A DNA stretch of 21,975 bases. It comes from a virus. Each line of letters opens with the position of its first letter. The first letter of the stretch is position 1. A program made the translations under genes and the position numbers. The notes below the pieces were generated by a model. The model ran no database searches, was not told the origin of the DNA, and saw only the letters and a program-made list of their open reading frames with translations. The stretch spans positions 1 to 21,975 of the IMG/VR virus record IMGVR_UViG_3300046468_001577, one strand, 5' to 3'. Shown in pieces: positions 4,160 through 20,212 of this stretch.

Positions 4160-4957
4160 ATGGAAAAGTATAAACACGCGATATTCGATATTGAAACAAG
4201 TCCGAAGAGTTCAGTTCTTGATGGATTTTTTATGGACACGCCCGTTTTTCGGGAAACTGATGTAAAGGTTGGGAACCTTAAGGATGAAATAAAGATTGCT
4301 GCAAAGATTGAGCAAGCAAAGATTGACCACGAAAAGGTGGTGAGTGATTACACTGAGGCTGTGACGAAAAAATGCTGCCTTGATGCAGATTATGGTCATG
4401 TCGTAGCAATTGGCGTGATGTACCTAGATGAAGGGATGAAGCCGACTAGGACTGATATACTGTCAGGCACTGAGGATGGGGAGGCAACGATGCTACAGGG
4501 CTTTTGGCGGGCTTTTGAAAAGATAAGAGGTTCGTATGGTCAGATGTTCGGGTGGAATATACAAAGCTTTGATTTACCATTCCTGATTAAAAGGAGTTGG
4601 CATTTAGGGGTAGAAGTTCCTAGCGATGCGGTAGATAAATATAGATTCTTCCACCCTGTTTTTATTGACCTGATGAAAGTTTATACTTTTGGGGGTTTTG
4701 GGAAGGATGCTTACTGTAAGTTAGAGAAAGCTTGCACAGCTTTTGGATTTATTCAGCCCGAAGGATTGAAAGTCACGGGTGAGATATTTTGGAGAGAGTG
4801 GGCAAGTGGTGATGCAGCACGGATGAAGGAGGCGAAGAGGTATTTACAGAATGATTTAGATATGACTCTTGCTGTTGCTTGTGGGATTCACCCGCCGCCA
4901 AAGAAAGAGATTCCAAAGGAACACACTGAAGATGCATTCGGAGGTGATTTACTATGA
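4160..4957 (+). CDS. DnaQ/PolB-type 3'-5' exonuclease
   Basis: This encodes 265 residues. The ATG at 4160 is preceded by AATAAG, as at other starts here. A TTG at 4142 would overlap the previous gene. Exo motifs appear in order: ExoI D10-I-E12 (IFDIETSP), ExoII around N133 to D138 (GWNIQSFDLPFL) and ExoIII D232/D234 (YLQNDLDMTLAVA). An insertion of about 50 charged residues (38-75) follows ExoI. This is the predicted PolB-like exonuclease family, seen in phages as a stand-alone enzyme beside a recombinase. It probably processes DNA ends for annealing or proofreads. No polymerase domain is attached. Confidence 0.85.
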   Translation: MEKYKHAIFDIETSPKSSVLDGFFMDTPVFRETDVKVGNLKDEIKIAAKIEQAKIDHEKVVSDYTEAVTKKCCLDADYGHVVAIGVMYLDEGMKPTRTDILSGTEDGEATMLQGFWRAFEKIRGSYGQMFGWNIQSFDLPFLIKRSWHLGVEVPSDAVDKYRFFHPVFIDLMKVYTFGGFGKDAYCKLEKACTAFGFIQPEGLKVTGEIFWREWASGDAARMKEAKRYLQNDLDMTLAVACGIHPPPKKEIPKEHTEDAFGGDLL

Positions 4958-5244
4958 TTCACGAAAACAGCAAGAGAAGCTTGAGCGATGTACAGGAAAA
5001 GGTTGGTGGGCGTTGCCAATTGATTCTCGATTGCTTGAGAAAAAATAGTCGTGGCATGAGCGATAGGGATATTATGATGGACTTAAGCTTTACAGACCCC
5101 AACGCGGTTCGTCCAAGGGTTACAGAATTGATTAAACGCGGGATGGTGGAAGAGTGCCTCAACTCTGCACAGTGTGCGATTACGGGGCGGCGTGTGAGGT
5201 TAGTTAGATTAGTTGGTAAAGGTCAGGGGACTTTGTCTCTATGA
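4954..5244 (+). CDS. Winged-helix DNA-binding protein
   Basis: This encodes 96 residues, with an ATGA overlap to the exonuclease upstream and another to the initiator gene downstream. CQLILDCLRKNSRGMSDRDI then LSFTDPNAVRPRVTELIKRGMVEE is a winged-helix layout: a helix, a turn with D-R-D-I, a recognition helix with R-P-R-V-T-E-L, and a wing with V-E-E. Small phage wHTH proteins of this kind often sit next to the replication initiator. It may take part in origin recognition or early control. There is no Cys cluster or catalytic motif. Confidence 0.65.
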   Translation: MIHENSKRSLSDVQEKVGGRCQLILDCLRKNSRGMSDRDIMMDLSFTDPNAVRPRVTELIKRGMVEECLNSAQCAITGRRVRLVRLVGKGQGTLSL

Positions 5245-5738
5245 GCAAGAGAAGATTTACTGATACAGGCAAATGGACTCAAGTTTGGTTTCGGGGATTG
5301 GCTCCCGATGCCAAGCTTGTGTTCCTCTACCTTCTAGATAACTGCGATGATGGAGGCTTTTGGGAAATTGATAACGATAGCGTGAGTTTTTATACAGGGC
5401 TCAGTAATGATAAAGTTATTGATGCACTAGCCTCACTGTTAGATGTGCAGCGGATTGAGCCTTTGCAAGGATATTTCTTTATTAGGAAGTTTTGTAAATA
5501 CCAATACCCGAATGGGATAAAGCGAGGATTCAACCCGCACAAAAGTGTGTTTCGTTCATTGGATAAACATAAAATAAAGGTAAAAGATATATTTAATTCT
5601 GAAGCCTTGCCCAAGGCTTGCCCAACCAAACAAGATAAAGAACTAGAACTAGAACTAGAATTAGATAAAGAATTAGAATTAGATAAGGAACTAGACAAGG
5701 GGATTTTAAGGGGGAGAAGAAATGGCAGAAACAACTGA
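5241..5738 (+). CDS. Phage replication initiator / replisome organiser
   Basis: This encodes 165 residues. The N-terminal domain (TGKWTQVWFRGLAPDAKLVF, then LYLLDNCDDGGFWEI, then SVSFYTGLS) is the winged-helix N-terminal domain of phage replisome organisers and DnaD-like initiators. The C-terminal part (about 130-155) is a low-complexity run of E-L-E-L-D-K units encoded by hexanucleotide repeats, then a basic end (RGRRNGRNN). It lies directly before the helicase loader with a 17-base overlap, as lambda O lies before P. A palindrome and the hexamer repeats inside the gene make a candidate origin. The protein is short for the family and lacks a second folded domain. Confidence 0.75.
   Translation: MSKRRFTDTGKWTQVWFRGLAPDAKLVFLYLLDNCDDGGFWEIDNDSVSFYTGLSNDKVIDALASLLDVQRIEPLQGYFFIRKFCKYQYPNGIKRGFNPHKSVFRSLDKHKIKVKDIFNSEALPKACPTKQDKELELELELDKELELDKELDKGILRGRRNGRNN
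5602..5700 (+). other. Candidate replication origin inside the initiator gene
   Basis: AAGCCTTG (5602-5609) and CAAGGCTT (5612-5619) form an inverted repeat with perfect 8-base arms around 2 bases. From 5641 to 5700 come ten consecutive hexamers related to AACTAG (AACTAG x3, AATTAG, ATAAAG, AATTAG x2, ATAAGG, AACTAG, ACAAGG), purine-rich on the top strand. Iterons plus AT-rich DNA inside the initiator gene, upstream of the loader gene, is the lambda-type origin arrangement. Activity is inferred from layout only. The repeat could simply encode a flexible linker. Confidence 0.45.
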
Positions 5739-6465
5739 GATAGCTGAGTTTAGTGATAGGACTATCGAAGTAACTTGCTCGATTACAGGCAAGCCCTTTA
5801 CAGTCAAGCAATATAGATGGGGAGGGATGTGGTGTCCTAACCCTGATGAATGGACTCACCCCGATGAGCAAGATAGATTAATTGCTGAAGAAAAGAAGGC
5901 GAAGCTTGAGATGGAGGATAAGGCAAGGGCTGACCTTACGAATAAATGGATTGAGGATAATGTGCCCAAGGCTTTAAGGGAGACAGACCCTAACCACGAT
6001 AGTCTTGATAGGGAGAGCTACAGGAAAGCGATTGATTGGCGGTACAAAGGTCGAGGCTTGGTGTTAGATGGTAAGATTCGTAAGGGTAAGACACGGGCGA
6101 TGTACCAAATAGCGATGAGGTTCGCACAGCGTGGGATTATGCCCGTGATAAAAACTGCGGAACAGATGCATAGGGATTTGGTCACGGCGATAATGAAAGA
6201 CCAAGCCGAGCACGAGCATAAGATGGCGATTTATGCTGACTGCGAAATTCTGTTTATTGATGACCTTGGTAAGGAGGTCGTATCAAAAAGGACACAGTCT
6301 GATTTCTTTGAGATTGTTTCTCAGCGGTGTGATATGGAAAAGCCTATGGTGATAACAAGTAACTTTACTAAAAGCACTTTGGTTAATAGATACCCCGATA
6401 GAGTTAGTGCTGAAAGTATGTACGAACGCATCAGAGAAACTTGCGATTCAATTAAGTTTCGATGA
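5722..6465 (+). CDS. DnaC-like AAA+ helicase loader
   Basis: This encodes 247 residues. Walker A is G117-KIRK-GKT124, Walker B is LFIDDLG at 177-183, sensor I is around MVITSNFT, and an RIRE segment near the C terminus fits the arginine-finger helix of the DnaC/IstB group. An N-terminal region with C19 and C38 precedes a charged helical linker (49-75). It should load the replicative helicase, probably the host's, because no phage helicase is seen in the window. A strong GGGGGAGA ribosome site precedes the ATG, one of the few clear Shine-Dalgarno sequences here. The start overlaps the initiator gene by 17 bases. Confidence 0.88.
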   Translation: MAETTEIAEFSDRTIEVTCSITGKPFTVKQYRWGGMWCPNPDEWTHPDEQDRLIAEEKKAKLEMEDKARADLTNKWIEDNVPKALRETDPNHDSLDRESYRKAIDWRYKGRGLVLDGKIRKGKTRAMYQIAMRFAQRGIMPVIKTAEQMHRDLVTAIMKDQAEHEHKMAIYADCEILFIDDLGKEVVSKRTQSDFFEIVSQRCDMEKPMVITSNFTKSTLVNRYPDRVSAESMYERIRETCDSIKFR

Positions 6466-6704
6466 AAGCACTAGAAGCACCTTGGCGATGGGTTTGTGAT
6501 TCCTCAAGTAAAGGGGAGGCACATCTAATTGATTTACTTGGAGAGAGCGGCAATGGAGAGTGTAGCTGCAAGGATTTTCAAATTAGGAGAAGACCCAAGC
6601 TGAGAGATGGACACGCATCAAGTCGATTTACTAGATGTAAGCATATCGATCTCGCAAGAGAGCTCGCCCTTAACATGATCATTGATGCACACAGAACTAG
6701 TTAA
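6462..6704 (+). CDS. Small SWIM-type zinc-binding protein
   Basis: This encodes 80 residues with the zinc ligand set C34-x-C36 ... C59-x-H61, the CxCx(n)CxH pattern of SWIM domains. An ECSCKDF start and an RCKHIDLA end match that fold closely. SWIM domains bind DNA or protein and are commonly fused to nucleases, helicases or transposases. Here the domain stands almost alone. It is coupled to the helicase loader by an ATGA overlap and overlaps the RusA gene by 20 bases. A role in recombination is likely from context; biochemical detail is unknown. Confidence 0.75.
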   Translation: MKALEAPWRWVCDSSSKGEAHLIDLLGESGNGECSCKDFQIRRRPKLRDGHASSRFTRCKHIDLARELALNMIIDAHRTS

Positions 6705-7131
6705 AGAGTTCTTCATTGATTGCCTCCCGCCCAAGACTACGCATCAGGCATCACTGCGTATCTTCAAGACCAAGGCGGGGCGGCAATTTGTGGGGCGAGA
6801 TAATAAAGGGAGAAGCGTAGCACGAATGCTTGAATCTTTACTTATCCCTTACCGCCCTACTCACTTAATCGATGAGCCTGTTCTACTGACAGTTCGTTAC
6901 TACTACCCGTATCGAAAATCAGAACCCAAGAAGAATCGCAATGCACTTATCCCGCACACATCAAAGCCTGATGCTGATAATATCCTTAAGGGGTATATCG
7001 ATGCGATGACACGGGCGGGCTTTTGGAAAGATGATAATATCGTTTTCCGTATAAATTTTGAAAAATATTTTGATAAACGAAGTGGGATATACACAGGAAT
7101 CTCAGTGTTCAAAGGGTGGTTAGGGGAATAA
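6685..7131 (+). CDS. rusA: RusA-family Holliday junction resolvase
   Basis: This encodes 148 residues from the ATG at 6685; an upstream TTG at 6682 adds only one residue. The hallmark block is KPDADN (94-99), then D106 and WKDD (114-117), giving the acidic residues that bind Mg2+ in RusA. The enzyme nicks four-way junctions symmetrically. In phages it resolves recombination intermediates or debranches DNA before packaging. Length is close to the family norm, slightly longer at the N terminus. It ends the early replication/recombination operon, 19 bases before the next operator promoter. Confidence 0.93.
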   Translation: MHTELVKEFFIDCLPPKTTHQASLRIFKTKAGRQFVGRDNKGRSVARMLESLLIPYRPTHLIDEPVLLTVRYYYPYRKSEPKKNRNALIPHTSKPDADNILKGYIDAMTRAGFWKDDNIVFRINFEKYFDKRSGIYTGISVFKGWLGE

Positions 7132-7150: not shown

Positions 7151-7179
7151 TTGACACTATGCGGTATCCCGTACATAGT
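7151..7179 (+). promoter_or_regulatory. Promoter P2 with palindromic operator in its spacer
   Basis: TTGACA (7151-7156), a 17-base spacer with TGCGG-TATC-CCGTA (7160-7173), then CATAGT (7174-7179). The next ATG is at 7187, seven bases after the -10, where transcription would be expected to start. The first mRNA may therefore be leaderless. It drives 7187-8624 up to the terminator at 8632. Confidence 0.75.
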
Positions 7180-7375: not shown

Positions 7376-7414
7376 GGGGTAACTTTTCCAAACACTAACC
7401 ACAAAAAAAATAAG

Positions 7415-7750
7415 ATGAATTATATAAAATTACTAAAAGAGCTTGAAGAGCTCACAAAATGGAACGACCACACGAACGCACGATTAACTTTAGTCAATGC
7501 ACTGATTTCATTTATAGATAATAAAATTGATGCGGGGCTCAAAACTTACGACCCAAATTTTAAGCCCGTAAAGCTTGATGGTTTGCTGTTACTTCGCAAG
7601 TCTTACGATTTAGTGAGAAAGCAGCAAGCTTTCGATGGCTACTTAAAAAAGGAGTCAAGTAATTTACGCGATGAGGCTGATGACATTCTTTACATGATTG
7701 CAACCAAGCTGCACCCGATTCAAGCCCCAACCCTTTTAGGAGCACTTTAA
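7415..7750 (+). CDS. Hypothetical helical protein
   Basis: This encodes 111 residues. The start is set by the CTAACCA leader ending AATAAG just before the ATG. The sequence is largely helical and charged (YIKLLKELEELTKWNDHTNA, later LVRKQQAFDGYLKKESSNLR). It has no cysteines or catalytic signature and no membrane segment. I do not recognise the family. It is followed one base later by the next gene, so co-translation is likely. Confidence 0.6.
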   Translation: MNYIKLLKELEELTKWNDHTNARLTLVNALISFIDNKIDAGLKTYDPNFKPVKLDGLLLLRKSYDLVRKQQAFDGYLKKESSNLRDEADDILYMIATKLHPIQAPTLLGAL

Positions 7751-7751
7751 G

Positions 7752-8096
7752 ATGAGCGGTGCGAGAACTTCAGCAAATAACTTCACCCGCACGATTATGG
7801 CGGCTTGCAATAACTTTGCATTGGTAGGAGTTAAAAACATATTACAGGACGGCGATAAAAATTGGATTCGTGTCAGTTTTAAGGGCTCCCGTAAGTGTAA
7901 CACGATGACAGTTAAACTGAACGGCTTAGATTTACTTGATGTCGAGTTCGGCAAGCTAGTAAATAAACGAGTCAAGGATTCCGTAATTGGAATAAAGATG
8001 CCCGTGATAGAAACCAAGGCAAAGCACGATTCGATATATATTGATATGCTCAGAGAGATATTTGAACAGGAAACAGGATTATACCTGACTTTCTAA
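7752..8096 (+). CDS. Phage hypothetical protein (DVEF...YxDML family pattern)
   Basis: This encodes 114 residues. The C-terminal half reads LDVEFGKL, then a short strand region, then DSIYIDMLREIFEQETGLYL. That pattern (V-E-F-x-K/R, then I-Y-x-D-M-L-x-x-I-F-E-x-x-T-G-L) I recall from a small conserved protein of marine phages, including cyanophages. The function is unknown. The likely fold is mixed alpha/beta, with no catalytic motif visible. It starts one base after the preceding stop and precedes the cyclotransferase-like gene. Confidence 0.6.
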   Translation: MSGARTSANNFTRTIMAACNNFALVGVKNILQDGDKNWIRVSFKGSRKCNTMTVKLNGLDLLDVEFGKLVNKRVKDSVIGIKMPVIETKAKHDSIYIDMLREIFEQETGLYLTF

Positions 8097-8123
8097 AGCT
8101 AACCACAAAACAAATAAGATAAA

Positions 8124-8624
8124 ATGATTATACATAACTTCTACGATAGAGGCATTCACAGCCAAGAAAAACTTGATGGCAATGACCCACAGATTGAAAG
8201 GTCAACTAGGCGATTTCTTTTTGTCTACGGGACATTAAAAAAAGGAGGCAGTAATAATTTATTACTAAAAGATGCTAAATTTGAAGGTGAGGCACAAACT
8301 TTAGCACCTAGGGCGATGATGGATGGGGGGATTCCCTTCTTGGTGAAAAGTAAAACATACTATGATAGAAATTTAGATTTAAATTATGCTGCCCATGTTA
8401 CGGGACACATATTTGATATTTCTAAATATAACCTTGCCGATTGTGATAGTTTAGAGGGTCACCCAAATTGGTACAGGCGGGAAATTGATTATTTCACGCT
8501 TGGATGTCAGATGGTTTCTGCCTATGTTTATTACTTAAACCCCGATAGACTTAAATGGCACAATGATTTACCTTTGATTTCTGCTCCTGTGGTTAGTGAG
8601 TGGCGAAGCAAGCGATACGCTTGA
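8124..8624 (+). CDS. Gamma-glutamylcyclotransferase (GGCT/AIG2)-like protein
   Basis: This encodes 166 residues. FVYGTLKKG (33-41) is the family's substrate-loop motif. The DSLEGHPNWYRRE block (about 108-120) holds E111, the expected catalytic Glu. GGCT-fold enzymes release 5-oxoproline from gamma-glutamyl amides, or remove gamma-glutamyl-amine crosslinks. The first 28 residues are a non-conserved extension. It is last in the P2 operon, just before the terminator, and 265 bases upstream of the amidoligase/amidotransferase operon. Together the three suggest making and breaking of gamma-glutamyl or related amide bonds. The CTAACCA leader precedes the ATG. Confidence 0.85.
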   Translation: MIIHNFYDRGIHSQEKLDGNDPQIERSTRRFLFVYGTLKKGGSNNLLLKDAKFEGEAQTLAPRAMMDGGIPFLVKSKTYYDRNLDLNYAAHVTGHIFDISKYNLADCDSLEGHPNWYRREIDYFTLGCQMVSAYVYYLNPDRLKWHNDLPLISAPVVSEWRSKRYA

Positions 8625-8631
8625 TAAAACT

Positions 8632-8657
8632 AAGCCCCCGAAAGGGGGCTTTTTTTT
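8632..8657 (+). terminator. Strong intrinsic terminator of the P2 operon
   Basis: AAGCCCCC (8632-8639), GAAA tetraloop, GGGGGCTT (8644-8651), then a run of eight Ts (8650-8657). It lies eight bases after the cyclotransferase-like gene and separates the P2 and P3 operons. Confidence 0.95.
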
Positions 8658-8813
8658 GGTCATCTTTTATATCGATATACGGCGATTAAAATAAGAAACT
8701 TTTTTCTTTTTTTTTAAAACTATTTTTTCACCGATGGTATCATATAGGCTGAAACCCTGATGAATACTGACTTTCCTATCGTTGATATTTTTTTTAAAAA
8801 CTTTGTTTAAATG
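8658..8813. other. AT-rich intergenic stretch before promoter P3
   Basis: No gene is apparent between the P2 terminator and promoter P3. The segment carries long T runs (8700-8716, 8788-8797) and the short self-complementary ATATCGATAT (8669-8678). No -35/-10 pair or RNA fold stands out. It may insulate the operons or bend DNA. Confidence 0.5.
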
Positions 8814-8842
8814 TTGACACTATACGGTCTCCCGTACATACT
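8814..8842 (+). promoter_or_regulatory. Promoter P3 with palindromic operator in its spacer
   Basis: TTGACA (8814-8819), a 17-base spacer ending in TACGG-TCTC-CCGTA (8823-8836), then CATACT (8837-8842). It drives the amidoligase operon (8889-10955) after a leader of about 40 bases that contains the CTAACCA motif. Confidence 0.75.
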
Positions 8843-8888
8843 GAGCTTAGTTTTACTTAATTATTCACTAACCAAATATTAAAAAAAT

Positions 8889-9845
8889 ATGAAAACCGCA
8901 GAACAAATTACCGCCGCAATTAAAAACGCCACTTTTGGAATTGAGCTTGAGACTTTGATGCCTCGCTCTAAAGCCGCCGAATTGGGGCTTGTATTAAATT
9001 CCTCAAATTGGAGCCGCCCGATTAACCTTGGGAGTTTTGGTTTTCCTTTATGGGAAGCCAAGTACGATAGCACGATTACGGGAGTGAGTGGAATGCAAGG
9101 AATTGAGTTTGTTAGTAAGCCTCTTAAGGGCGATGAGGGAATTAAGGACATGATTCGCTTCACACAGTGGCTCAATGATAATGAGGTAACTGTAAACAGT
9201 AAATGTGGATGTCACATACATTTGGGAATAGGTTCAGTGACTGAAGGGCTCACCTCCGATGAAGTTATTCAATTTGTCATTAACATGACCAAAGCCGCCA
9301 ACAAATTGAAAGGTGCGATTTTCGCACAGTGCGGCAGTGCAAACCGCTTTTTCCGTAACACTTGGGGCAAGCCTTTACAGGCACAGCACAAAGCGAGAAT
9401 AAACAACGCCGACAAGGATAGAAATATTCCTGATTTAGGCGACCGCTACATGATGATTAATACTCAACCCTCGATGGCTGCGGGTCGTGGTAGAACAGCG
9501 GGCAAGGTAACGATTGAGTTTAGGGCTTTCTGCGGTACAACTAACGCCGACAAGATTCTTACTCACCTTTACACAGTGTTTGCTTGTGCAACGCTTGCCC
9601 TAGGTTCAAAGTCGATTTCATGGACAAATGGTCGTAACGCTACAGCCGATAAAGCTGATAAGCAACTCAACTCACTGTTCAATGGCAAGTGGGGATTCCT
9701 TTCTGTTCTACCTACGATGCAAGCCCGTCAACGCAAGTTCAAGAAGGTTGCCCGTGCGATGGCTGCGAAGTTCACCAATAAGGTGAACCGCATGATAACT
9801 AACGGCTCACTAAGTCATGCAACAATTGAGCGCTTGAGCGCTTAA
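8889..9845 (+). CDS. Putative amidoligase (COOH-NH2 ligase, Amidoligase_2-like)
   Basis: This encodes 318 residues. Motifs in order: FGIELE (16-21), with paired acidic metal ligands; an AKYDST then GIEFVSKPL block (57-79); CGCHIHLG (106-113), the His-x-His motif; and TIEFRAF (208-214) followed by GTTNADKI. This order is that of the glutamine-synthetase/GCS-like fold used by putative amidoligases, which join a carboxylate to an amine with ATP. The substrate is unknown; candidates are a small peptide, a protein side chain or the cell surface. The C-terminal 70 residues are basic and may bind nucleic acid or be a separate tail. It is first in the P3 operon and followed by a glutamine-amidotransferase-like gene. 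Confidence 0.82.
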   Translation: MKTAEQITAAIKNATFGIELETLMPRSKAAELGLVLNSSNWSRPINLGSFGFPLWEAKYDSTITGVSGMQGIEFVSKPLKGDEGIKDMIRFTQWLNDNEVTVNSKCGCHIHLGIGSVTEGLTSDEVIQFVINMTKAANKLKGAIFAQCGSANRFFRNTWGKPLQAQHKARINNADKDRNIPDLGDRYMMINTQPSMAAGRGRTAGKVTIEFRAFCGTTNADKILTHLYTVFACATLALGSKSISWTNGRNATADKADKQLNSLFNGKWGFLSVLPTMQARQRKFKKVARAMAAKFTNKVNRMITNGSLSHATIERLSA

Positions 9846-9863
9846 TTGTTAACCGATAACAAT
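9845..9863. repeat. Perfect inverted repeat before the amidotransferase-like gene
   Basis: ATTGTTA-ACCGA-TAACAAT has 7-base arms. A looser version, TGTTA-N8-TAACA, lies at 10983-11000 just before the glycosyltransferase-like gene at 11003. Both sit in short intergenic gaps upstream of start codons. A shared operator or an mRNA hairpin is possible. Confidence 0.4.
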
Positions 9864-9885
9864 TCTTAACAGGAGATAAAATAAG

Positions 9886-10548
9886 ATGTGTGTGATAATA
9901 TATTGTAAGAAAGGCGGCAACCGCCCGACAGAAAAAGTTCTTAAGAAATGCGAGCGGGCAAACCCGCACGGGATAGGAGTTGCCTACCAACGGGAAGGCT
10001 CCGATATGTACACGATTGCAAAAGGCATAGGCTTCAAAACTTTGATTCAAATAATGAACAGGCATGACGGAGAAATTGGGATTCACTTCCGATATGCAAC
10101 TGTAGGGGGCAAGACAAAAGAACTTTGCCACCCCTTCCCTACCACGCCGAAGGTAGAAACATGGCTTGATTATGAAAGTAATGCGATTCTGTTTAGTAAT
10201 GGGACTTGGGCAAATTGGGATGAGTCTTATGAAATGCACAGGCAACTTCTTAAGCTGAAAAAATTGGAAGGGCAAATGTCAGATACGCGAGCACTTGCAA
10301 AGCTCGTTTCCAAGCACGGCAAAACGGGATTCTTGCGCCATGTAAAAGATACCCACGCAAAGCACGATTTCGTGCGATGCTTAATTATGAAAACTGCAAA
10401 GCCCGCAGTGATGACAGGAACATGGCATAAGGTTAACGGCGTGATGTACAGCAATACGCGATGGCAAGTTGCTCCCGCCCGCTCGATTTCTAACTATTGG
10501 GGTAAGGCACGAATTTCCGATATACTTGGTCAGGCAACACTAGGATAA
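9886..10548 (+). CDS. Class II glutamine amidotransferase-like (Ntn hydrolase) protein
   Basis: This encodes 220 residues. C2 directly follows the initiator Met (MCVIIY), as needed for an N-terminal cysteine nucleophile. Supporting motifs are NPHGIG (26-31), HFRYATVG (67-74), HPF (82-84) and SNG (104-106), the glutaminase-domain order of class II GATases. It would hydrolyse glutamine to supply ammonia, or act on a gamma-glutamyl or amide substrate. No synthetase or isomerase domain follows, so a partner is expected. The amidoligase 40 bases upstream is the natural one. The start is fixed by AGGAG at 9871 and AATAAG before the ATG. The C-terminal half (130-220) is less recognisable. Confidence 0.82.
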   Translation: MCVIIYCKKGGNRPTEKVLKKCERANPHGIGVAYQREGSDMYTIAKGIGFKTLIQIMNRHDGEIGIHFRYATVGGKTKELCHPFPTTPKVETWLDYESNAILFSNGTWANWDESYEMHRQLLKLKKLEGQMSDTRALAKLVSKHGKTGFLRHVKDTHAKHDFVRCLIMKTAKPAVMTGTWHKVNGVMYSNTRWQVAPARSISNYWGKARISDILGQATLG

Positions 10549-10553
10549 AAATA

Positions 10554-10955
10554 ATGGAAGTATATTTTAAAGAGTTGACGGACTACGGGAAACCGATTAG
10601 TTATTCTGTGATGTCCGATGATAAATTAAGAGTCGATGCTTTGATAGAGCGAGTAAATAAAGTTATTGATGGCGGGGTCAGGATGGCTGACCTCGCAAGA
10701 TACCTTGGTAAGTCATGGAGTCAGTGTAGCGAATGGGTTAGAACAAAGCGATACACGCCAAACGCAGAAGTAGCCCTCGCGATGCAAGAGTGGTGTGCGA
10801 TGCATGAACCGATGTTAGGCAAGAGCCTGTCGATGGAGAAAAGAGATGACGGGTCTATTAGGCTTACTATGGATGGCTTAGATTTAAGTGCTCTTGAACA
10901 AGAGCTTTGGTTTGAAAACCATTCGATGAGGCAATTACTAGGGGCTAAATTATAG
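10554..10955 (+). CDS. Helix-turn-helix DNA-binding protein, last gene of the P3 operon
   Basis: This encodes 133 residues. GVRMADLARYLGKSWSQCSEWVRTKRYTPNAEVALAMQEW (about 41-80) is an XRE-type HTH: M-A-D-L-A-x-x-L-G as helix 2, then S-x-C-S-E-W-V as the recognition helix. The N-terminal 30 and C-terminal 45 residues are unassigned. It could regulate this operon or the four TACGG operators, which is a guess. It starts six bases after the previous gene. Its stop codon lies inside the terminator stem. Confidence 0.7.
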   Translation: MEVYFKELTDYGKPISYSVMSDDKLRVDALIERVNKVIDGGVRMADLARYLGKSWSQCSEWVRTKRYTPNAEVALAMQEWCAMHEPMLGKSLSMEKRDDGSIRLTMDGLDLSALEQELWFENHSMRQLLGAKL

Positions 10956-10966
10956 CCCCTTTTTTT
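10940..10966 (+). terminator. Intrinsic terminator of the P3 operon
   Basis: AGGGGCTA (10940-10947), a 5-base loop, TAGCCCCT (10953-10960), then seven Ts (10960-10966). The TAG stop of the preceding gene is part of the 3' stem. Confidence 0.95.
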
Positions 10967-11002: not shown

Positions 11003-11698
11003 ATGAAGAATCTTGGTTTAATCCAAATCGTAAATCACCACTCAAGGGAAAGAGAGGCAAAAGCGATGGCGATGCTTTTGGAGCGTGAGTCAGATGAGCC
11101 TGTCGAGCAAGTTGTTGATTATGATACTTGGGGCGTGTGGAAGACCTACAGAAAGGCTTTTGATACGCCAAACAATAAAGAGTGGCGGTTGATACTACAG
11201 GACGATGTCAGCTTCTCTTGTGGCTTATTGGAAAACATCGATGAGATTCTTAATTTTGTGCCTCAAAAAACTTGGATGAGTTTTTACTGTCCTACTAATG
11301 GCAGTTTCAAGGAATGCTATCAGATGGGATGCCATGTATTGAAAAGCCCATCAAACTTTTCTTGTCTTTGCATGGCGATGAGGGAATCAGATATTTCTGC
11401 ATTTAGAAAGTGGGAGCTTTCATCAGGATACCCCGAAGACCAAATATCTGAAGATGCACGAATGAAAACTTTCAACCTAGATGAAGGGCATTTAGTTTAC
11501 ACTATCGTTCCATCTCTTACTCAGCATCTTGGGGCTTATCGTTCAACTTTAGGAACCAATGGAAAAGTTGGGAAGTTCCATCGTAATTCTTTTTGTTATG
11601 AGCCTGATTTCGATGTTCAATCAGTTGATTGGAAAGATGCAATGAGTAAGCCCTACAAATGTAAGGCGGGCAACGGGAAGGTGCATCGATATGTTTAA
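11003..11698 (+). CDS. GT-A-fold glycosyltransferase-like protein
   Basis: This encodes 231 residues. An N-terminal strand (LGLIQIVNHHSRE) is followed by LILQDDVSF (63-71), a DxD-like metal/nucleotide-sugar motif in the usual GT-A position. Downstream are YPEDQISEDARM, a likely acceptor/base region, and YTIVPSLTQHLG, with a His that commonly completes the metal site. The gene at 12125 has the same plan (MEDDI, then FVPSLVQH), so the two are probably paralogs around a ParB-like gene. In phages such proteins glycosylate DNA bases, surface glycans or proteins. The sugar and acceptor are unknown. No clear promoter precedes it, although a terminator does. Confidence 0.65.
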   Translation: MKNLGLIQIVNHHSREREAKAMAMLLERESDEPVEQVVDYDTWGVWKTYRKAFDTPNNKEWRLILQDDVSFSCGLLENIDEILNFVPQKTWMSFYCPTNGSFKECYQMGCHVLKSPSNFSCLCMAMRESDISAFRKWELSSGYPEDQISEDARMKTFNLDEGHLVYTIVPSLTQHLGAYRSTLGTNGKVGKFHRNSFCYEPDFDVQSVDWKDAMSKPYKCKAGNGKVHRYV

Positions 11699-12140
11699 GG
11701 ACAAAAGTTACGGCGTGAAACTGAATCGTAAGGATTCAGTTCTCACTATTGAGTATGTTGAGGGACTGAGCATCAAACCTAATCAATATAATCCCAATAC
11801 GCACTCTGCTAGGTCGTTTGATTTATTACTAAGGTCTATAGCACTGTTTGGATTTACACAGCCTATCATTGCCCACAGGCAAACAAGAGAAATTATTGAT
11901 GGTGAGCATAGATGGAGGGCTTCATGTGTTTTAGGAATCGAAAAGGTTCCTGTATGTTTTATCGACTTAACAGAAGAGGAAATGAGAATCGCAACCTTGA
12001 TGCATAATGAGGCAAGAGGAAAGCACTCTAAGAAATTACGGGATAAAATGGGAAAGTTTTTAGAAACTAAAGGAATCGAACTAGATCAGGAAATGTTAAA
12101 ATCAAGAGAGAATGCTAAAATTGTATGTTTAAAACAATAA
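11691..12140 (+). CDS. ParB/sulfiredoxin-fold protein, short IbrB-like
   Basis: This encodes 149 residues. NQYNPNTHSA (31-40), GFTQPIIA (54-61), DGEHRWRAS (70-78) and ATLMHNEARGKHS form a ParB N-terminal-type domain. The last block closely parallels ATVRHNRARGSHS in the IbrB-like protein at 15413, but the C-terminal helical domain of that protein is missing. ParB/Srx folds bind CTP or ATP. Besides partition, phage versions are proposed to act as nucleases or kinases in DNA modification. The gene sits between two glycosyltransferase-like genes, overlapping by 8 and 16 bases, suggesting a shared modification pathway. Confidence 0.78.
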   Translation: MFKDKSYGVKLNRKDSVLTIEYVEGLSIKPNQYNPNTHSARSFDLLLRSIALFGFTQPIIAHRQTREIIDGEHRWRASCVLGIEKVPVCFIDLTEEEMRIATLMHNEARGKHSKKLRDKMGKFLETKGIELDQEMLKSRENAKIVCLKQ

Positions 12141-12691
12141 TCAGAAGTTGCGAGGGACGGGAAAAGTTTGCGGAATACTTGATGGGTAAGCTCGCCCCGT
12201 TAGTTCCTTACATAATCGTAGATGATACGGGAAATGCTATGAACTGCTTTAGGCAAGCTCTAGATATAGCAAAAGATTCACCCGCTTTACATATGGAGGA
12301 TGATATAATTCTCACTGAAGGCTTTTGTGAGAAGGTAAAGACCGAAATCGAAAAGCATCCCGATCAAGTAATTCAATTCTTTAGTATTAGGAAAAAGGAT
12401 TTAACTGAAGGAACTAGACTTGAGTCAGGTGGGAAGTTTTTGATGGGTCAGTGTTTTTACTTGCCCGCAGGTTTATCGATGGCAATCAAAGCTTACTTGC
12501 CTAGTTGGAAGGGAATCAAGGAGCATCCTACGGGATTAGATTCTATGGTTATGGATTACTTAAAGGTAACAAAGCGTAAATATATACATTTTGTCCCATC
12601 CTTGGTTCAGCATAGAGAAGTTAAATCAATGATTGACCCGCGTAGAAGCTCAAAGAGGCAATCACCAACCTTCATTAATCCCGATTTATGA
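12125..12691 (+). CDS. GT-A-fold glycosyltransferase-like protein
   Basis: This encodes 188 residues. LHMEDDIIL (55-63) is the DxD-like motif. A C-terminal HFVPSLVQHREVKS carries the candidate metal-binding His. This matches the neighbour at 11003 in motif order but is about 40 residues shorter. Between the motifs, GQCFYLPAGLSMAI resembles the acceptor-side strand of small GT-A enzymes such as family 25-like proteins. It probably works with its paralog, either as consecutive sugar transferases or as a heterodimer. The target is not known. The start overlaps the ParB-like gene by 16 bases. Confidence 0.6.
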   Translation: MFKTIIRSCEGREKFAEYLMGKLAPLVPYIIVDDTGNAMNCFRQALDIAKDSPALHMEDDIILTEGFCEKVKTEIEKHPDQVIQFFSIRKKDLTEGTRLESGGKFLMGQCFYLPAGLSMAIKAYLPSWKGIKEHPTGLDSMVMDYLKVTKRKYIHFVPSLVQHREVKSMIDPRRSSKRQSPTFINPDL

Positions 12692-12909
12692 ATCAAGGAA
12701 CTAGTGGAAACTACCCGCCGATTTCTTATGATGAAATGCTAAGGGCATCAGAGTTATTTTGGAGTAAAAATAAACTAGCCGTAGATAGTAACGGAAAAAC
12801 TTACAGGACTAATATTCCAAGGAAAGCCCCGCAAGATAATTTTAATTATAAAAGTAGAAAGAAAAGATATGAAGGTAAATTGCAGTTACAAAAAGCTCAT
12901 CGTAATTGA
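12688..12909 (+). CDS. Small basic hypothetical protein
   Basis: This encodes 73 residues, starting by ATGA overlap with the preceding gene. The C-terminal third is very basic (KSRKKRYEGKLQLQKAHR). The N-terminal part reads NYPPISYDEMLRASELFWSKN. There is no catalytic motif or membrane segment. It overlaps the next gene by 41 bases, an unusually long overlap here. Either this gene really ends earlier in function, or the next one starts internally. I do not recognise the family; nucleic-acid binding is possible from charge alone. Confidence 0.5.
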   Translation: MNQGTSGNYPPISYDEMLRASELFWSKNKLAVDSNGKTYRTNIPRKAPQDNFNYKSRKKRYEGKLQLQKAHRN

Positions 12910-13462
12910 AGAGCTCAAGCCAAATCCTGATAACCCAAATAGGCATAGTAATGAGCAGATAGAAAAGCTTGCAGCCGTAATTAATTATCAAGGGTGGCGA
13001 GCCCCTATCGTGGTATCTAACCTATCAGGTTATATCGTAAAAGGACATGGGAGATTAATGGCAGCAGAGAAGGCGGGATATAAAAAAGTTCCTGTTGATT
13101 TCCAAGATTACGATTCATTGGAGCAAGAAAAGGCTGACCTAATCGCTGACAACAGATTAGCAGAGTTATCAGAATGGAATGACCTAAAGCTCAACGATAT
13201 GTTGGCAGAACTTAATAAAAGTGAAAATCTCGACATCGAACTGTCAGGATATTCAGCAGATGAGTTTAGTGGTTTGGCAGAAGGTCTATTTAATCCAAAT
13301 GAATCTCCATCTGCGGCACACGGCGAGGTGACTCAAGTTCAGATCGATGCCACAGGCAGAAGCTTGGATGGGCAGTTCCAAGGAAAAGATAGCCATCTTG
13401 TAAATGTGACTTGCCCGCACTGTGGTGATGATTTTTCTGTAAGTATGCGGGAATCTAGTTGA
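12869..13462 (+). CDS. ParB-like domain protein with C-terminal zinc-ribbon-like motif
   Basis: This encodes 197 residues. KPNPDNPNRHS (17-27), APIVV (45-49), KGHGRLMAAEKAG (58-70) and LIADNRLAELSEWND (about 90-105) are exactly the ParB-type domain found at the N terminus of many phage DNA methyltransferases. No methyltransferase domain follows. Instead an acidic linker leads to CPHC near the C terminus (C182, C185), half of a zinc ribbon. It may be a modification accessory, a DNA-binding scaffold, or the remnant of a ParB-methylase. Its stop codon overlaps the -35 box of promoter P4. Confidence 0.75.
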   Translation: MKVNCSYKKLIVIEELKPNPDNPNRHSNEQIEKLAAVINYQGWRAPIVVSNLSGYIVKGHGRLMAAEKAGYKKVPVDFQDYDSLEQEKADLIADNRLAELSEWNDLKLNDMLAELNKSENLDIELSGYSADEFSGLAEGLFNPNESPSAAHGEVTQVQIDATGRSLDGQFQGKDSHLVNVTCPHCGDDFSVSMRESS

Positions 13463-13487
13463 CTAAGTACGGGAACCCGTACATTAT
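13459..13487 (+). promoter_or_regulatory. Promoter P4 with palindromic operator in its spacer
   Basis: TTGACT (13459-13464), a 17-base spacer ending TACGG-GAAC-CCGTA (13468-13481), then CATTAT (13482-13487). It is the best palindrome of the four (TACGGG-AA-CCCGTA). The ATG at 13494 is only seven bases beyond the -10, so the transcript would have little or no leader. It drives the IbrA/IbrB and packaging genes. Confidence 0.72.
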
Positions 13488-13493
13488 AAAGGA

Positions 13494-14243
13494 ATGAAAC
13501 AATATTTCACCAATAGGAAAGCAAGAACAGAACTAATAGAACTTTTCAATGAGGCTTCAGCAGAGCTAGCTATTGATTACAGCTTCCTAGAACAGGGTGA
13601 CTTTTATACGGCTTTCAAGCTGAGAAATAAATATATTGGTTTTATAATGGTAAAGATGGAGCCGTTTTCCGATGCGGAAATACTTTTCTCTTTTGTCACT
13701 AGAAACGCCCGCCATAAGGGGCACTACACGGAGATGCTTAAGCGAACTCGCGAAAGAATAGTAAAAAAACTTGATGGCGAACCCTACGGCATAATTGTAA
13801 GCAACCCTACAGTTTCCTATTTGCACGAAGCTAGAGGTGCGGTGAGAAATGAAGATGGCAAGCTTAGGTATGACTTGCCCGCGATACAGCAAAGCGAAAA
13901 GAGGCTAATTGATGACCGCCCCGCAATACAGCAAGCTAACCGCGATAGCCCAACTTACAAAAGGGTTAAGGCTGATGCATGGTCGGTCTTAGCTGATGCA
14001 CCTTGGAGTGGTGGCGGTTGGGGTTATAACCCGCACCAATACACAGCAAAAAGAAATTGGGAAGAGAAAGACAAGTTCCATGAGATGGTTGAGTTTTTAC
14101 AGAACTATGGTGAACGAGTTCGATACGGGCGAGAAATGTATGATGTTGTATTCTTTGATACTCACAGGGTGTGGAATTGCTCACTGATAGAGCACCCCTT
14201 TGAGGTTTCCATAATTAACCGCAAACCTATAGCCGCCCGATGA
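13494..14243 (+). CDS. Hypothetical protein with GNAT-like N-terminal region
   Basis: This encodes 249 residues. The segment around 47-110 resembles a GNAT acetyltransferase: a strand pair (KYIGFIMVKMEP, then ILFSFVTR), R73-H-K-G76-H-Y in place of the acetyl-CoA loop R-x-x-G-x-G/A, a helix, then YGIIVSNPTVSYLHEARG. The C-terminal 120 residues are rich in Trp, Tyr and Arg and not recognised. It is the first gene after promoter P4 and couples by ATGA to the PAPS-reductase-like gene, so it may supply or modify that pathway's substrate. The acetyltransferase call is tentative. Confidence 0.5.
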   Translation: MKQYFTNRKARTELIELFNEASAELAIDYSFLEQGDFYTAFKLRNKYIGFIMVKMEPFSDAEILFSFVTRNARHKGHYTEMLKRTRERIVKKLDGEPYGIIVSNPTVSYLHEARGAVRNEDGKLRYDLPAIQQSEKRLIDDRPAIQQANRDSPTYKRVKADAWSVLADAPWSGGGWGYNPHQYTAKRNWEEKDKFHEMVEFLQNYGERVRYGREMYDVVFFDTHRVWNCSLIEHPFEVSIINRKPIAAR

Positions 14244-15412
14244 GAAGTTATTTGACTAGTAATGTATTTGATGCGTCACTTGCTAGGCTGCGATACATAT
14301 TTGATGAGTTCAAGAATGTAGTTGTTGGATTCTCAGGTGGTAAAGATTCAACTGTAACTTTAAATATGGCATTACAAGTGGCACGGGAGAAAAACCGATT
14401 ACCTCTTACTGTGATGTTCTTAGATCAAGAAGCTGAGTGGCAGACTGTTATTGATTACATTCGAGTTATTATGTCGAATCCCGAAATCAATGCTCATTGG
14501 TTACAAGTTCCGATCAAGTTATTTAATGCGGCATCAATGAATCAACCTTGGCTGTACTGTTGGGCAGAAGGTGCAAAATGGATGAGGGAAAGAGAGCCAA
14601 ATTCAATTCAATCAAATGACTACGGAACGGATCGATTTACTAAGATGTTTGGTGCATACATGAAGAAACACTTTGGAGATGAGCCTTGTGCGTTACTAGG
14701 TGGCGTAAGGGCTGAAGAATCACCCGCAAGAAGAACGGCACTGACTCAGAATGTCACATACAAACACATCACCTATGGTAAAACATATTGTAAGAAAAGG
14801 AATCATTATACTTTTTACCCCTTTTATGATTGGGCTCTTTCTGATGTGTGGAAGGCAATAAATGATAATGGATGGGAATACTGTAAGATTTACGACTACT
14901 ATTATCAGCATGGATTACCCGCTCACAAAATGAGAGTATCCAATCTTCACCATGAAACAGCAGTTGACCAATTGTTTTACTTACAGGAAATCGAGGGTGG
15001 AACTTGGAACAGACTCACACAGCGATTAGAGGGAATATCACAAGCGAGGCATTTCAAGAAAACTGAGATGTTTAGAGTGGAAGAACTCCCCTTCATGTTT
15101 AGGAGTTGGAGGGAATATCGTGACCATCTAGTTGAGAATTTAGTAAGCGATGACAAGCGTGATGTCTTTATTGCTCGATTTAAGAAAATGGAAGCAATGT
15201 ATGAAGGTATGGCGAACGATTGGGAGATGTACAAAACTCACATCTTGTGCGTACTGAGGAATGATTACGAATTTACTACTTTAGGCAATTTCCTTGCCCG
15301 CCCCGAAAGTATTAATTTTCACAAATGGAGGAAAGGGGTCGAAATAGAGTGGAATCGACCTGAGAGAGACTTACGCTTCATCCCGCATCAAAAACGCCCA
15401 AAAACAGCCTAA
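14240..15412 (+). CDS. ibrA: IbrA-like PAPS-reductase/PP-loop ATPase family protein
   Basis: This encodes 390 residues. VVVGFSGGKDSTVTLNMAL carries the PP-loop SGGKDS (32-37). VMFLDQEAEW and LLGGVRAEES are the downstream family motifs, and the C-terminal region carries FHKWRKGVEIEWNRPERD. This is the PAPS-reductase-like group (DUF3440) that includes E. coli prophage IbrA and, more distantly, DndC. Such enzymes adenylylate a substrate or handle sulfur; the true substrate of IbrA is unsettled. The next gene is an IbrB-like ParB protein, the expected partner. A Cys cluster for an Fe-S centre is not obvious (C-K-K around 180 only). Confidence 0.85.
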   Translation: MRSYLTSNVFDASLARLRYIFDEFKNVVVGFSGGKDSTVTLNMALQVAREKNRLPLTVMFLDQEAEWQTVIDYIRVIMSNPEINAHWLQVPIKLFNAASMNQPWLYCWAEGAKWMREREPNSIQSNDYGTDRFTKMFGAYMKKHFGDEPCALLGGVRAEESPARRTALTQNVTYKHITYGKTYCKKRNHYTFYPFYDWALSDVWKAINDNGWEYCKIYDYYYQHGLPAHKMRVSNLHHETAVDQLFYLQEIEGGTWNRLTQRLEGISQARHFKKTEMFRVEELPFMFRSWREYRDHLVENLVSDDKRDVFIARFKKMEAMYEGMANDWEMYKTHILCVLRNDYEFTTLGNFLARPESINFHKWRKGVEIEWNRPERDLRFIPHQKRPKTA

Positions 15413-16066
15413 ATGGATAAAGAAACAATCACAGAGCAACTAAAGGGAAGTTCTACAGTTGAAAAAATAGAATTACTTGAATCAATAAGAGAAATACTTC
15501 ACGAAGAGAGCCCATTGATGGAACAGCCAATCGATAGAGTACGATGGGTTAATATTGAGCTCGTTGAGGCTAATAATTACAATCCAAACAGTGTTGCGTC
15601 AAAAGAGATGCAATTACTATATACCTCGATTAAGCATGACGGATATACTCAGCCAATAGTTACGATATATGACACAGAGAGAAAGAAATTCGTAATTATT
15701 GACGGCTTTCATCGATATTACACTGCTAAATCAAACAAAGATATTCTAGAGCGTAATCACGGAAAACTGCCAATTGTAGTTTTGAAAAAGGATATAAATG
15801 AACGCATGGCGGCGACAGTTAGACACAATCGAGCAAGGGGAAGCCATTCAATACAAGGAATGAGCCAAATGGTTTTTAAAATGCTAGACAATGGATGGGA
15901 GGATTCAGCTATATGTAATCACTTAGGAATGGAGCCCGAAGAGTTGCTGAGGCTAAAACATATAACAGGATTCTCGAAACTATTTGAAGATGTGGAATAC
16001 CAACAAGCGTGGGTAAGCAAGAAGCAAATCAAGCTCGCAAAAGAGGCTAATCGTCATGTCCAATAG
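15413..16066 (+). CDS. ibrB: IbrB-like ParB/sulfiredoxin-fold protein
   Basis: This encodes 217 residues, with an ATG immediately after the ibrA-like stop. The ParB-type core has NNYNPNSVAS (54-63), YTQPIV (78-83), DGFHRYYTA (97-105) and ATVRHNRARGSHSI. The C-terminal helical part, MSQMVFKMLDNGWEDSAICN then GMEPEELLRLKHITGFSKLF, is the HTH-containing tail typical of IbrB. IbrA/IbrB were named as prophage regulators of immunoglobulin-binding proteins in E. coli; their chemistry is not settled. Here they sit next to other ParB-like and glycosyltransferase-like genes, pointing to nucleic-acid modification or control. Confidence 0.87.
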   Translation: MDKETITEQLKGSSTVEKIELLESIREILHEESPLMEQPIDRVRWVNIELVEANNYNPNSVASKEMQLLYTSIKHDGYTQPIVTIYDTERKKFVIIDGFHRYYTAKSNKDILERNHGKLPIVVLKKDINERMAATVRHNRARGSHSIQGMSQMVFKMLDNGWEDSAICNHLGMEPEELLRLKHITGFSKLFEDVEYQQAWVSKKQIKLAKEANRHVQ

Positions 16067-18202: not shown

Positions 18203-18431
18203 TTGGATTCAACATTTAACCGAACATATCCCGCCTGTTAAGCTCACAGAGCCCAAGGGCAAAGGATGGAGAACGATGAAGCAGATTATTGCAGAGTGTG
18301 AGTGGGGTATTAATAAAACTAGGGCGATGGTTATGGATGGAGTTAAGGCGGGGAAGATTGAGGTGTTTGGTGGTACACAGCTTAATGCATCAGGAATTAA
18401 GACCCGACAAACTTGGTACAAGATTAAGTAA
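18195..18431 (+). CDS. Small winged-helix-like hypothetical protein
   Basis: This encodes 78 residues, overlapping the phosphoesterase gene by eight bases and the large terminase by one. GWRTMKQIIAECEWGINKTRAMVMDGVKAGKIEVFGG suggests a helix-turn-helix with a short wing. It has no catalytic motif. It might assist terminase or regulate late genes, which is inference from position. I do not recognise the family. Confidence 0.6.
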   Translation: MSNWIQHLTEHIPPVKLTEPKGKGWRTMKQIIAECEWGINKTRAMVMDGVKAGKIEVFGGTQLNASGIKTRQTWYKIK

Positions 18432-20212
18432 TGGTAAGCGTTGTTGAGGAAACTTTTAGATCTGCCTTTGCCCCACCTGATCGCAAGCCCGTTTGGGAAT
18501 GGGCTCAAGAAAATGTAAAAGTTGATCCAACCTCACCCTTTCAAGGATTGTGGAGAAGTGAGATTAGTCCTTGGGTTCGGGAGTTTATGGATTGCTTTCA
18601 AGATATAGAAGTTGAGCAATTGACGATTATGTGTTCGGCACAGTCAGCAAAGACTCAATCTTTAATCTGCGTTTTGGCATGGTGTTTATCTCAAGAGCCC
18701 GCCCCTTCGATGTGGGTGACAAGTAACGGAGGGGAGGCAGCTTATTTTATGAAAACAAGATTAATGCCTACTATCCTAGATTGTGCCCCGCTTGCGGATA
18801 CCTTAGTTCAAGGTAGGGATAAGGTAACTAAGTCACAGGCTAATTTCCACGGGGCATCCTTGAAGGTTACAGGAGCCGCATCTCCAAGTGGATTGCAGTC
18901 CAAGCCTGTCCGATGGCTTTTCCTAGATGAAGTTAGAAACTACCCCGAAGGAGCCTTAGAGATGGTTCAGAAAAGAACAAGAGCTTATTGGAACTCTAAA
19001 ACCTTAATCGTTTCAACGCCTGATAAAGAAAATGACGGGATACATAGAAGCTTCCTAGAAGGAGATCAAAGAACTTTTCATTACCGATGCCCAAACTGTG
19101 AGGACTTGATTCCGCTTCAGTGGGGAAATATGAAATGGGCAGATGACTGCAAGAAAGATGGAGCCTATGACTTTGAGAAGCTTAACCCGTCAATTCGATT
19201 ACAATGCCCTCGCTGTGAGCATGAGATGTATGATACTCCTGATAACAGAAGGCATATCGCAGAAAAGGGAGAGTTCGTAAGACTTAATCCCAAATGCGCG
19301 AGAAGTAAGGTTTCGTTTTATTGGAACGCAATCTTGCCGCCGTGGGTAAAGTGGCGGGATTTGGTAGAGGAGTTTTTGTCAGGAATGGCAGCGATGAAAA
19401 ACGGAAACCCACAGCCCTTAAAGGATTTTATTAACGAATCAGCGGGAGAGCCTTGGAAGGATAGTATGACAGCAGTAGACGATGACACGATTGACGACAG
19501 GCGAGACACTTACCGATTAGAGGAGAAATGGGATGAAGAGTATTGCCGATTTATGTCTGTAGATGTTCAAGGAGGAGGAGGATTGCATTATTGGTATGTG
19601 ATTCGCTCTTTCGCAAAACAAGGAGCCGCATCGAGATTGCATACTTTTGGTAAGGCGTACAGTGAATCTGAGTTGTTGGAGATTTCAAAAGAGCATGGAG
19701 TGCCACCGACACGATGCGTAATCGATTGTGGGTGGAATACTGCATCAGTCATAAGGTTCTGCCAAAGATACGGATGGAAGCCTTTTCGTGGAGATGCAGC
19801 AAAGCAGTTCACAGTGCGAGATAAAAAGTCAGGGAAAGCAGTCCGACAGATATGGACAGAAAACTATGCCGATGCTGAAATGGGAACAAGATTGCAAGGA
19901 ATGACAAAAAGGGTAAAGCGATATATGTGGTCGAATGATGCGACTAAAAACATACTTGCAGAACTCATGGCGGGAGGATTAGGAAGATGGACAATTCCAA
20001 AAAACACACCGCAAGAATACATTCAACAACTAACAAGTGAGATTCGGGAAGAAAAGAGAGAAGCTAATGGGCGAATATCTTATGTATGGAAACAGACCCG
20101 CCGAGATAACCACCTGAGAGATTGCGAGTTAATGATTGTAGTTGCAAGTATTGCGGCGAGGTTAGGGTTAGATGCCACTCCTATTGACATTGAATCTGTT
20201 ATAGATGAGTAG
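18431..20212 (+). CDS. terL: Terminase large subunit, GpA family
   Basis: This encodes 593 residues, the packaging ATPase and nuclease. The ATPase N-terminal half has a Walker A-like CSAQSAKT (68-75), in which the usual glycines are Ala/Ser, and Walker B LFLDE (163-167). Two CPxC pairs (220-223 and 259-262) form the zinc module common in lambda gpA-type proteins. The nuclease half begins at MSVDVQGG, where D378 is the first metal ligand; WTENYADAEM and a C-terminal HLRDCELM complete the family pattern. Length is close to lambda gpA. It starts with a TAATG overlap and is followed by gpW-like and portal genes in lambda order. Confidence 0.95.
   Translation: MVSVVEETFRSAFAPPDRKPVWEWAQENVKVDPTSPFQGLWRSEISPWVREFMDCFQDIEVEQLTIMCSAQSAKTQSLICVLAWCLSQEPAPSMWVTSNGGEAAYFMKTRLMPTILDCAPLADTLVQGRDKVTKSQANFHGASLKVTGAASPSGLQSKPVRWLFLDEVRNYPEGALEMVQKRTRAYWNSKTLIVSTPDKENDGIHRSFLEGDQRTFHYRCPNCEDLIPLQWGNMKWADDCKKDGAYDFEKLNPSIRLQCPRCEHEMYDTPDNRRHIAEKGEFVRLNPKCARSKVSFYWNAILPPWVKWRDLVEEFLSGMAAMKNGNPQPLKDFINESAGEPWKDSMTAVDDDTIDDRRDTYRLEEKWDEEYCRFMSVDVQGGGGLHYWYVIRSFAKQGAASRLHTFGKAYSESELLEISKEHGVPPTRCVIDCGWNTASVIRFCQRYGWKPFRGDAAKQFTVRDKKSGKAVRQIWTENYADAEMGTRLQGMTKRVKRYMWSNDATKNILAELMAGGLGRWTIPKNTPQEYIQQLTSEIREEKREANGRISYVWKQTRRDNHLRDCELMIVVASIAARLGLDATPIDIESVIDE

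Follow-up and report, generated by a model that had tools for sequence, protein, structure and literature searches.

The analysed window, a linear stretch of 21,975 bases from an IMG/VR virus record, carries three real, co-regulated enzymes that make or break gamma-glutamyl-type amide bonds, namely a cyclotransferase (GGCT), an amidoligase and a class II glutamine amidotransferase-like protein (GATase). Comparison of phage sequences points to a slot rule, by which either a GATase or a GGCT of the YGxN type (in one locus a PuuD-like hydrolase) would stand beside the amidoligase, with a GGCT of the YGTL type as an optional addition. We favour, with a confidence just short of even, the reading of the three genes as a compact phage set that makes and breaks gamma-glutamyl amides over one of plain ammonia supply, because all of the partners that fill the slot open gamma-glutamyl amides. 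The three genes cluster at 8124-10548, where they had been placed by an earlier, sequence-only reading, and belong to two adjacent operons, A and B, with the following features:

53-81, + strand: third copy of the promoter-operator (TTGACA-17-CATAGT), upstream of an early operon that begins at 127 and is unrelated; DNA search and promoter scan
7151-7179, + strand: promoter-operator of operon A (the GGCT operon); element search, 40-nt repeat D1
7415-7750, + strand: small gene of operon A with no assigned function; no Pfam or PHROG match
7752-8096, + strand: small gene of operon A, PHROG 9437 (no assigned function); E = 4.7e-17
8124-8624, + strand: GGACT-like gamma-glutamyl(amine) cyclotransferase (GGCT), YGTL type; PF06094, aligned with the GGACT/AIG2 structures 1vkb and 3jub
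8632-8651, + strand: intrinsic terminator (terminator-like site) at the end of operon A, predicted from sequence
8814-8842, + strand: promoter-operator of operon B (amidoligase-GATase); repeat, promoter scan and element search
8889-9845, + strand: Amidoligase_2 of the GS/GCS fold, predicted ATP-dependent carboxylate-amine ligase; PF12224, AlphaFold2 and Foldseek, invariant residues
9886-10548, + strand: class II glutamine amidotransferase (Ntn) domain with Cys2; family profile against GlmS, AlphaFold2 and Foldseek, invariant residues
10554-10955, + strand: third gene of operon B, no assigned function; the nearest relative, L008, has a homologue (37%) in the corresponding place after its GATase
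10940-10960, + strand: intrinsic terminator (terminator-like site) at the end of operon B, predicted from sequence

The GGCT scored 57.6 bits against PF06094 (cut-off 22.8, E = 2.5e-15), and both sites by which it had been recognised from the letters alone were recovered: YGTL lies at residue 35, and Glu111, the predicted catalytic residue of this putative cyclotransferase, aligns with the corresponding Glu of the GGACT structures. The amidoligase matched PF12224 with 40.7 bits (cut-off 22, E = 3e-10). Its FGIELE (E19, E21) and CGCHIHLG (H109, H111) motifs fall in columns conserved across 63 homologues, and E19, E21, D60, E73, H109, E210 and R212 are invariant in these 63, the window included. 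The best Foldseek matches of its AlphaFold2 model (pLDDT 92) were bifunctional glutathione synthetase, YbdK, glutamine synthetase and gamma-glutamylcysteine synthetase (E from 4e-5 to 5e-4), which bears out the GCS/GS fold proposed earlier, and the modelled enzyme is predicted to ligate amides in an ATP-dependent manner.

The GATase-like protein is a stand-alone domain of 220 aa and, as a single sequence, falls under the Pfam GATase_6 cut-off (23.3 vs 27 bits), a threshold that is a database cut-off rather than a biochemical feature. This shortfall may be read as divergence, since the profile of its family (52 homologues) matched GlmS at 4.5e-22; the same profile matched PurF at 3e-17. Its AlphaFold2 model (pLDDT 88) matched the GlmS glutaminase domain 1xff in Foldseek (E = 5e-7). 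The protein starts with MC, and the Cys2 that had led to its description as an Ntn amidotransferase is invariant in 52/52 homologues; H67, R69, P83, N105, G106 and D133 are also invariant. We take R69, N105, G106 and D133 to be the equivalents of GlmS R73, N98, G99 and D123 and, by analogy with GlmS, these four together with Cys2 to be the nucleophile, glutamine-binding and oxyanion residues. The predicted structures of the amidoligase and the GATase have the GS-like and the Ntn fold, respectively, with their active sites present.

On the + strand of the window an integrase-like gene (1305-2363) is followed by replication and recombination genes (IstB/DnaA-type ATPase, RusA) and then by the three-enzyme module, downstream of which lie ParB, PAPS-reductase and glucosyltransferase-like genes, a terminase gene (18431-20212) and a portal gene cut off by the end of the contig. 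Two lines point to a host that probably belongs to the PVC group: the terminase is related (~25% identity) to phage terminases, that of Verrucomicrobia phage P8625 among them, and most of the 18 bacterial loci nearest to the amidoligase are from Akkermansiaceae, Planctomycetota and Victivallales. The block at 11003-16066 comprises two glucosyltransferase-like genes (PHROG 854), three ParB-like genes and a PAPS-reductase/DUF3440 gene, of which the ParB and PAPS-reductase genes are common to the nearest relative. Between ParB and PAPS reductase, 13494-14243 encodes a 249-aa protein with no Pfam or PHROG match.

The 29-base promoter-operator element TTGACACTATNCGGTNTCCCGTACATANT is present at 7151-7179 and 8814-8842 (0 expected in shuffles), and a copy with 2 mismatches lies at 53-81 (again 0 expected). 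The adjacent operons do have the same operator design, as the sequence-only reading had it; the co-regulation, which it had counted as evidence that the enzymes act together, is a weak pointer to this and is not specific to them, because the third copy precedes an unrelated early operon. The shared operator, which governs at least three operons, marks a phage-wide early regulon. Weaker, partly similar operator sites were seen on the - strand at 13467-13485 and 10583-10601, and two small RHH-like proteins encoded on the - strand (2335-2719) were picked by eye as repressor candidates. An A-rich leader, CTAACCACAAAAAAAAT, is repeated at 102-118, 321-337, 7395-7411 and 8099-8115 (4 found vs 0.11 expected by chance), directly upstream of start codons and at the expected Shine-Dalgarno position.

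Recurrent linkage of the three families in other phages, which the sequence-only reading had anticipated, was found far above chance in censuses run in both directions. The search of IMG/VR with the single amidoligase protein confirmed nothing, and alignments were needed; for the genome scan the 63-row amidoligase alignment was too diverse, and one of 8 rows worked. A GATase-like or GGCT gene lay within 5 kb of the amidoligase in 52 of 62 non-redundant IMG/VR loci, and in 40 of the 44 loci where the sequence continues for 3 kb or more downstream. By comparison, 0/43 control RusA loci (418 kb) carried any of the three families (Fisher p about 1e-20), these controls being drawn largely from cultured-host prophages and so not fully comparable with the environmental contigs behind the census. 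Starting from the GATase, an amidoligase was present in 51/57 loci; starting from the YGTL-type GGCT (60 non-redundant loci), it was present in 34, and all three families in 29. Among these 34 loci, GATase and GGCT were fused in one protein in 15, and 5 of the 34 carried homologues of the ATP-grasp and COOH-NH2 ligase enzymes of phage PaP3. The annotated genome of phage C75C1 likewise encodes a GATase-GGCT fusion.

A partner gene lay within 50 bp of the amidoligase, in some cases overlapping it, in 37/106 loci. To look for a hidden target enzyme we also compared 128 neighbours with Pfam and PHROGs; no strongly recurrent extra family emerged, the next most recurrent being ParB (within 5 kb in 28/117 loci vs 1/43 controls). 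In 23 loci between L230 and L294, neither amidoligase nor GATase lay within 6 kb of the YGTL GGCT, whose neighbours there were other recurrent genes; these loci mark a second, separate use of the protein in phages. One locus (L042) encodes two amidoligases in divergent orientation, at 4396-5769 (-) and 6019-6897 (+), one near a GATase and the other near a YGTL GGCT, and a Christensenellales phage (L003) encodes at 9321-10334 (-) a second protein that resembles the N-terminal part of the amidoligase (32% over 66 aa).

The GGCTs of these loci are of two types, YGxN and YGTL, and that of the window is of the latter. In the amidoligase-first census a YGxN GGCT occurred in 0/31 loci with a GATase vs 20/31 without one (p = 1.8e-8), a Fisher value inflated by related sequences, so that the number of partner changes on the amidoligase tree is what matters; on this tree the partner type switches several times. 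The same slot is occupied by a GGCT in one Christensenellales phage and by a GATase in a related one, the two having amidoligases 72% identical and flanking genes 39-86% identical. The YGTL GGCT accompanied either a GATase, to which it was fused in some loci and not in others, or a YGxN GGCT. In one locus (L080) with neither GATase nor YGxN GGCT, the amidoligase adjoins a gene of the Peptidase_C26 (PuuD-type) family. The exception in a wider, selected set was a single GATase locus that also had a YGSN gene. Two GGCT genes, one of the YGSN/FGSN type and one of the YGTL type, were observed at amidoligase loci L238, L245, L266, L273, L284 and L062.

Judged from these sequence patterns, the GATase and the YGxN GGCT would be functional alternatives whose common reaction may be the opening of a gamma-glutamyl amide. 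Leaving aside the comparative study of Iyer and colleagues (2009), which is reportedly the source behind claims about phage cassettes of these enzymes, the slot rule is new here. It narrows the chemistry, in that the product of the amidoligase must suit a class II GATase, a YGxN cyclotransferase or a PuuD-type hydrolase as partner, and it is a concrete, testable constraint for which sister phages differing in the slot offer a natural comparison.

The simplest explanation of the rule is that the partner's substrate is a gamma-glutamyl amide of the amidoligase's own pathway. Precedents are EgtA/EgtC, PuuA/PuuD and BtrJ/BtrG, in each of which a gamma-glutamyl ligase has as its partner an opener from one of the three classes that fill the slot. 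In the cycle that we favour for the window, the amidoligase would spend ATP on linking an amine to a carboxylate, most likely that at the gamma position of glutamate; its partner, the GATase-like protein, would hydrolyse a gamma-glutamyl amide via Cys2; and the YGTL cyclotransferase would open gamma-glutamyl-amines, turning their glutamyl part into 5-oxoproline by cyclisation, which would free the amine. The set may thereby place gamma-glutamyl groups on, and remove them from, an amine-bearing metabolite, a cell-wall precursor or a protein early in infection, a cytosolic cell-wall precursor being our leading guess. We infer the substrates, the direction of the reactions, the action of the opener on the ligase product and the target. 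A wider formulation, which is possible but which we hold with little confidence, is a two-slot system of one ATP-driven gamma-glutamyl ligase, an exchangeable gamma-glutamyl-amide opener (GATase, YGxN GGCT or PuuD-like) and an optional GGACT. Such a system would be widespread in phages, with a core unit other than the podoviral cell-wall cassette, and would cycle a gamma-glutamyl tag or protecting group on and off an amine of the host or the phage, perhaps for anti-defence or cell-surface conjugation. As for the isopeptide or amide modification first proposed for these genes, the enzyme assignments and their linkage hold, and the data choose none of a tag, a surface modification and an anti-defence conjugation.

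Several points weigh against the favoured cycle. To make a group and then remove it would seem to serve no end without a step by host or phage in between, and the GGCT of the window lies in a separate operon from the amidoligase and GATase. The GATase profile is closest to the ammonia-supplying enzymes GlmS and PurF, and no EgtC-like hydrolase was found by name among its matches, both of which favour ammonia supply. Glutamine-dependent amidation or amination, of which MurT/GatD and asparagine synthetase B are examples, is accordingly a possible alternative, albeit one we consider doubtful: the GATase would split glutamine and pass the ammonia to the amidoligase, which would amidate a carboxylate with ATP, while the cyclotransferase would act elsewhere in the pathway or supply other amines. 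The glutamine-binding residues expected for such a GATase (R69, N105, G106 and D133) are all invariant, and the close spacing and overlaps of amidoligase and partner genes are as expected of subunits. However, many other phages fill the slot with a cyclotransferase or a PuuD-like hydrolase, neither of which delivers ammonia, and the loci fetched yielded no fusion of amidoligase and GATase, although GATase-GGCT fusions are common.

A cassette for peptidoglycan modification, in which the peptide side chains of cell-wall precursors would be rebuilt for a superinfection block or in preparation for lysis, is a claim about the target that fits either chemistry, and it too seems to us possible but rather unlikely. 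It draws on the same three enzyme families: podoviral clusters of amidoligase, GATase, GGCT, ATP-grasp and COOH-NH2 ligase have been called peptidoglycan-modification cassettes, and for the fuller cassette a role in superinfection exclusion has been proposed, a role that rests on prediction (PMC5498523, PMC11945000). In addition, directed evolution of a Pseudomonas phage on biofilm gave missense mutations in both the amidoligase and the GFAT-like gene (PMC11450229), a hint, independent of the rest, at joint function of the two. Against the cassette, the ATP-grasp and COOH-NH2 ligase were found neither in the window, a fragment, nor in most loci. The ParB and PAPS-reductase block that follows the module both in the window and in its nearest relative, together with the enrichment of ParB near amidoligases, could suggest that the enzymes modify phage DNA or nucleotides along with the ParB, PAPS-reductase and glycosyltransferase-like genes at 11.0-16.1 kb. 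This is improbable in our judgement: a PAPS reductase lies near only 4/117 amidoligases and a glycosyltransferase-like gene near 2/117, no base-modification synthesis gene recurs among the neighbours, and ParB, though enriched, adjoins terminase genes in several loci. That the three are unrelated accessory genes brought together by chance, as the placement of the window GGCT in a different operon might allow, is barely credible in view of the censuses from both sides, the fusions and the exclusivity of the slot.

Annotations of phage amidoligase cassettes go back years, and the cassettes have been described again and again as cell-wall modifiers, in cited accounts that report no measured substrate. 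Like the window, the podoviral cassette (RIO-1, PSA-HP1, phiEco32, PaP3 and LUZ24) has clustered amidoligase, GATase and GGCT genes in the early region, whereas the host lineage of these phages is unlike that of the window phage and the GATase of PaP3 is a 517-aa GFAT-like protein rather than a stand-alone domain. Among the ORFs of the window, which is a contig fragment, no homologue of PaP3 orf43 (ATP-grasp) or orf48 (COOH-NH2 ligase) was detected, and a search with PF14395 (COOH-NH2 ligase) gave no match there, the control genomes being silent too. We did not file the set as the full podoviral cassette.

Marine OM43 phages share with the window the amidoligase and GATase pair (PF12224, PF13522), and the portion of that account at hand mentions, unlike the window, no cyclotransferase (PMC10580990). 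Clostridium clostridioforme prophages have an amidoligase and a GGCT (PHROG 2443, 2520) in one prophage region, and here the portion at hand mentions no GATase, which the window has (PMC11318856). By the slot rule, the GGCT of these prophages is expected to be of the YGxN type. The set of amidoligase, GATase and GGCT was thus already known in phages, and the window adds another example. By enzyme class, the closest likenesses outside phages are EgtA/EgtC, PuuA/PuuD and BtrJ/BtrG, in which a gamma-glutamyl ligase is matched with a remover (a class II GATase, a C26 enzyme and a GGCT fold, respectively); these are bacterial metabolic pathways with known substrates, whereas the genes of the window are those of a phage.
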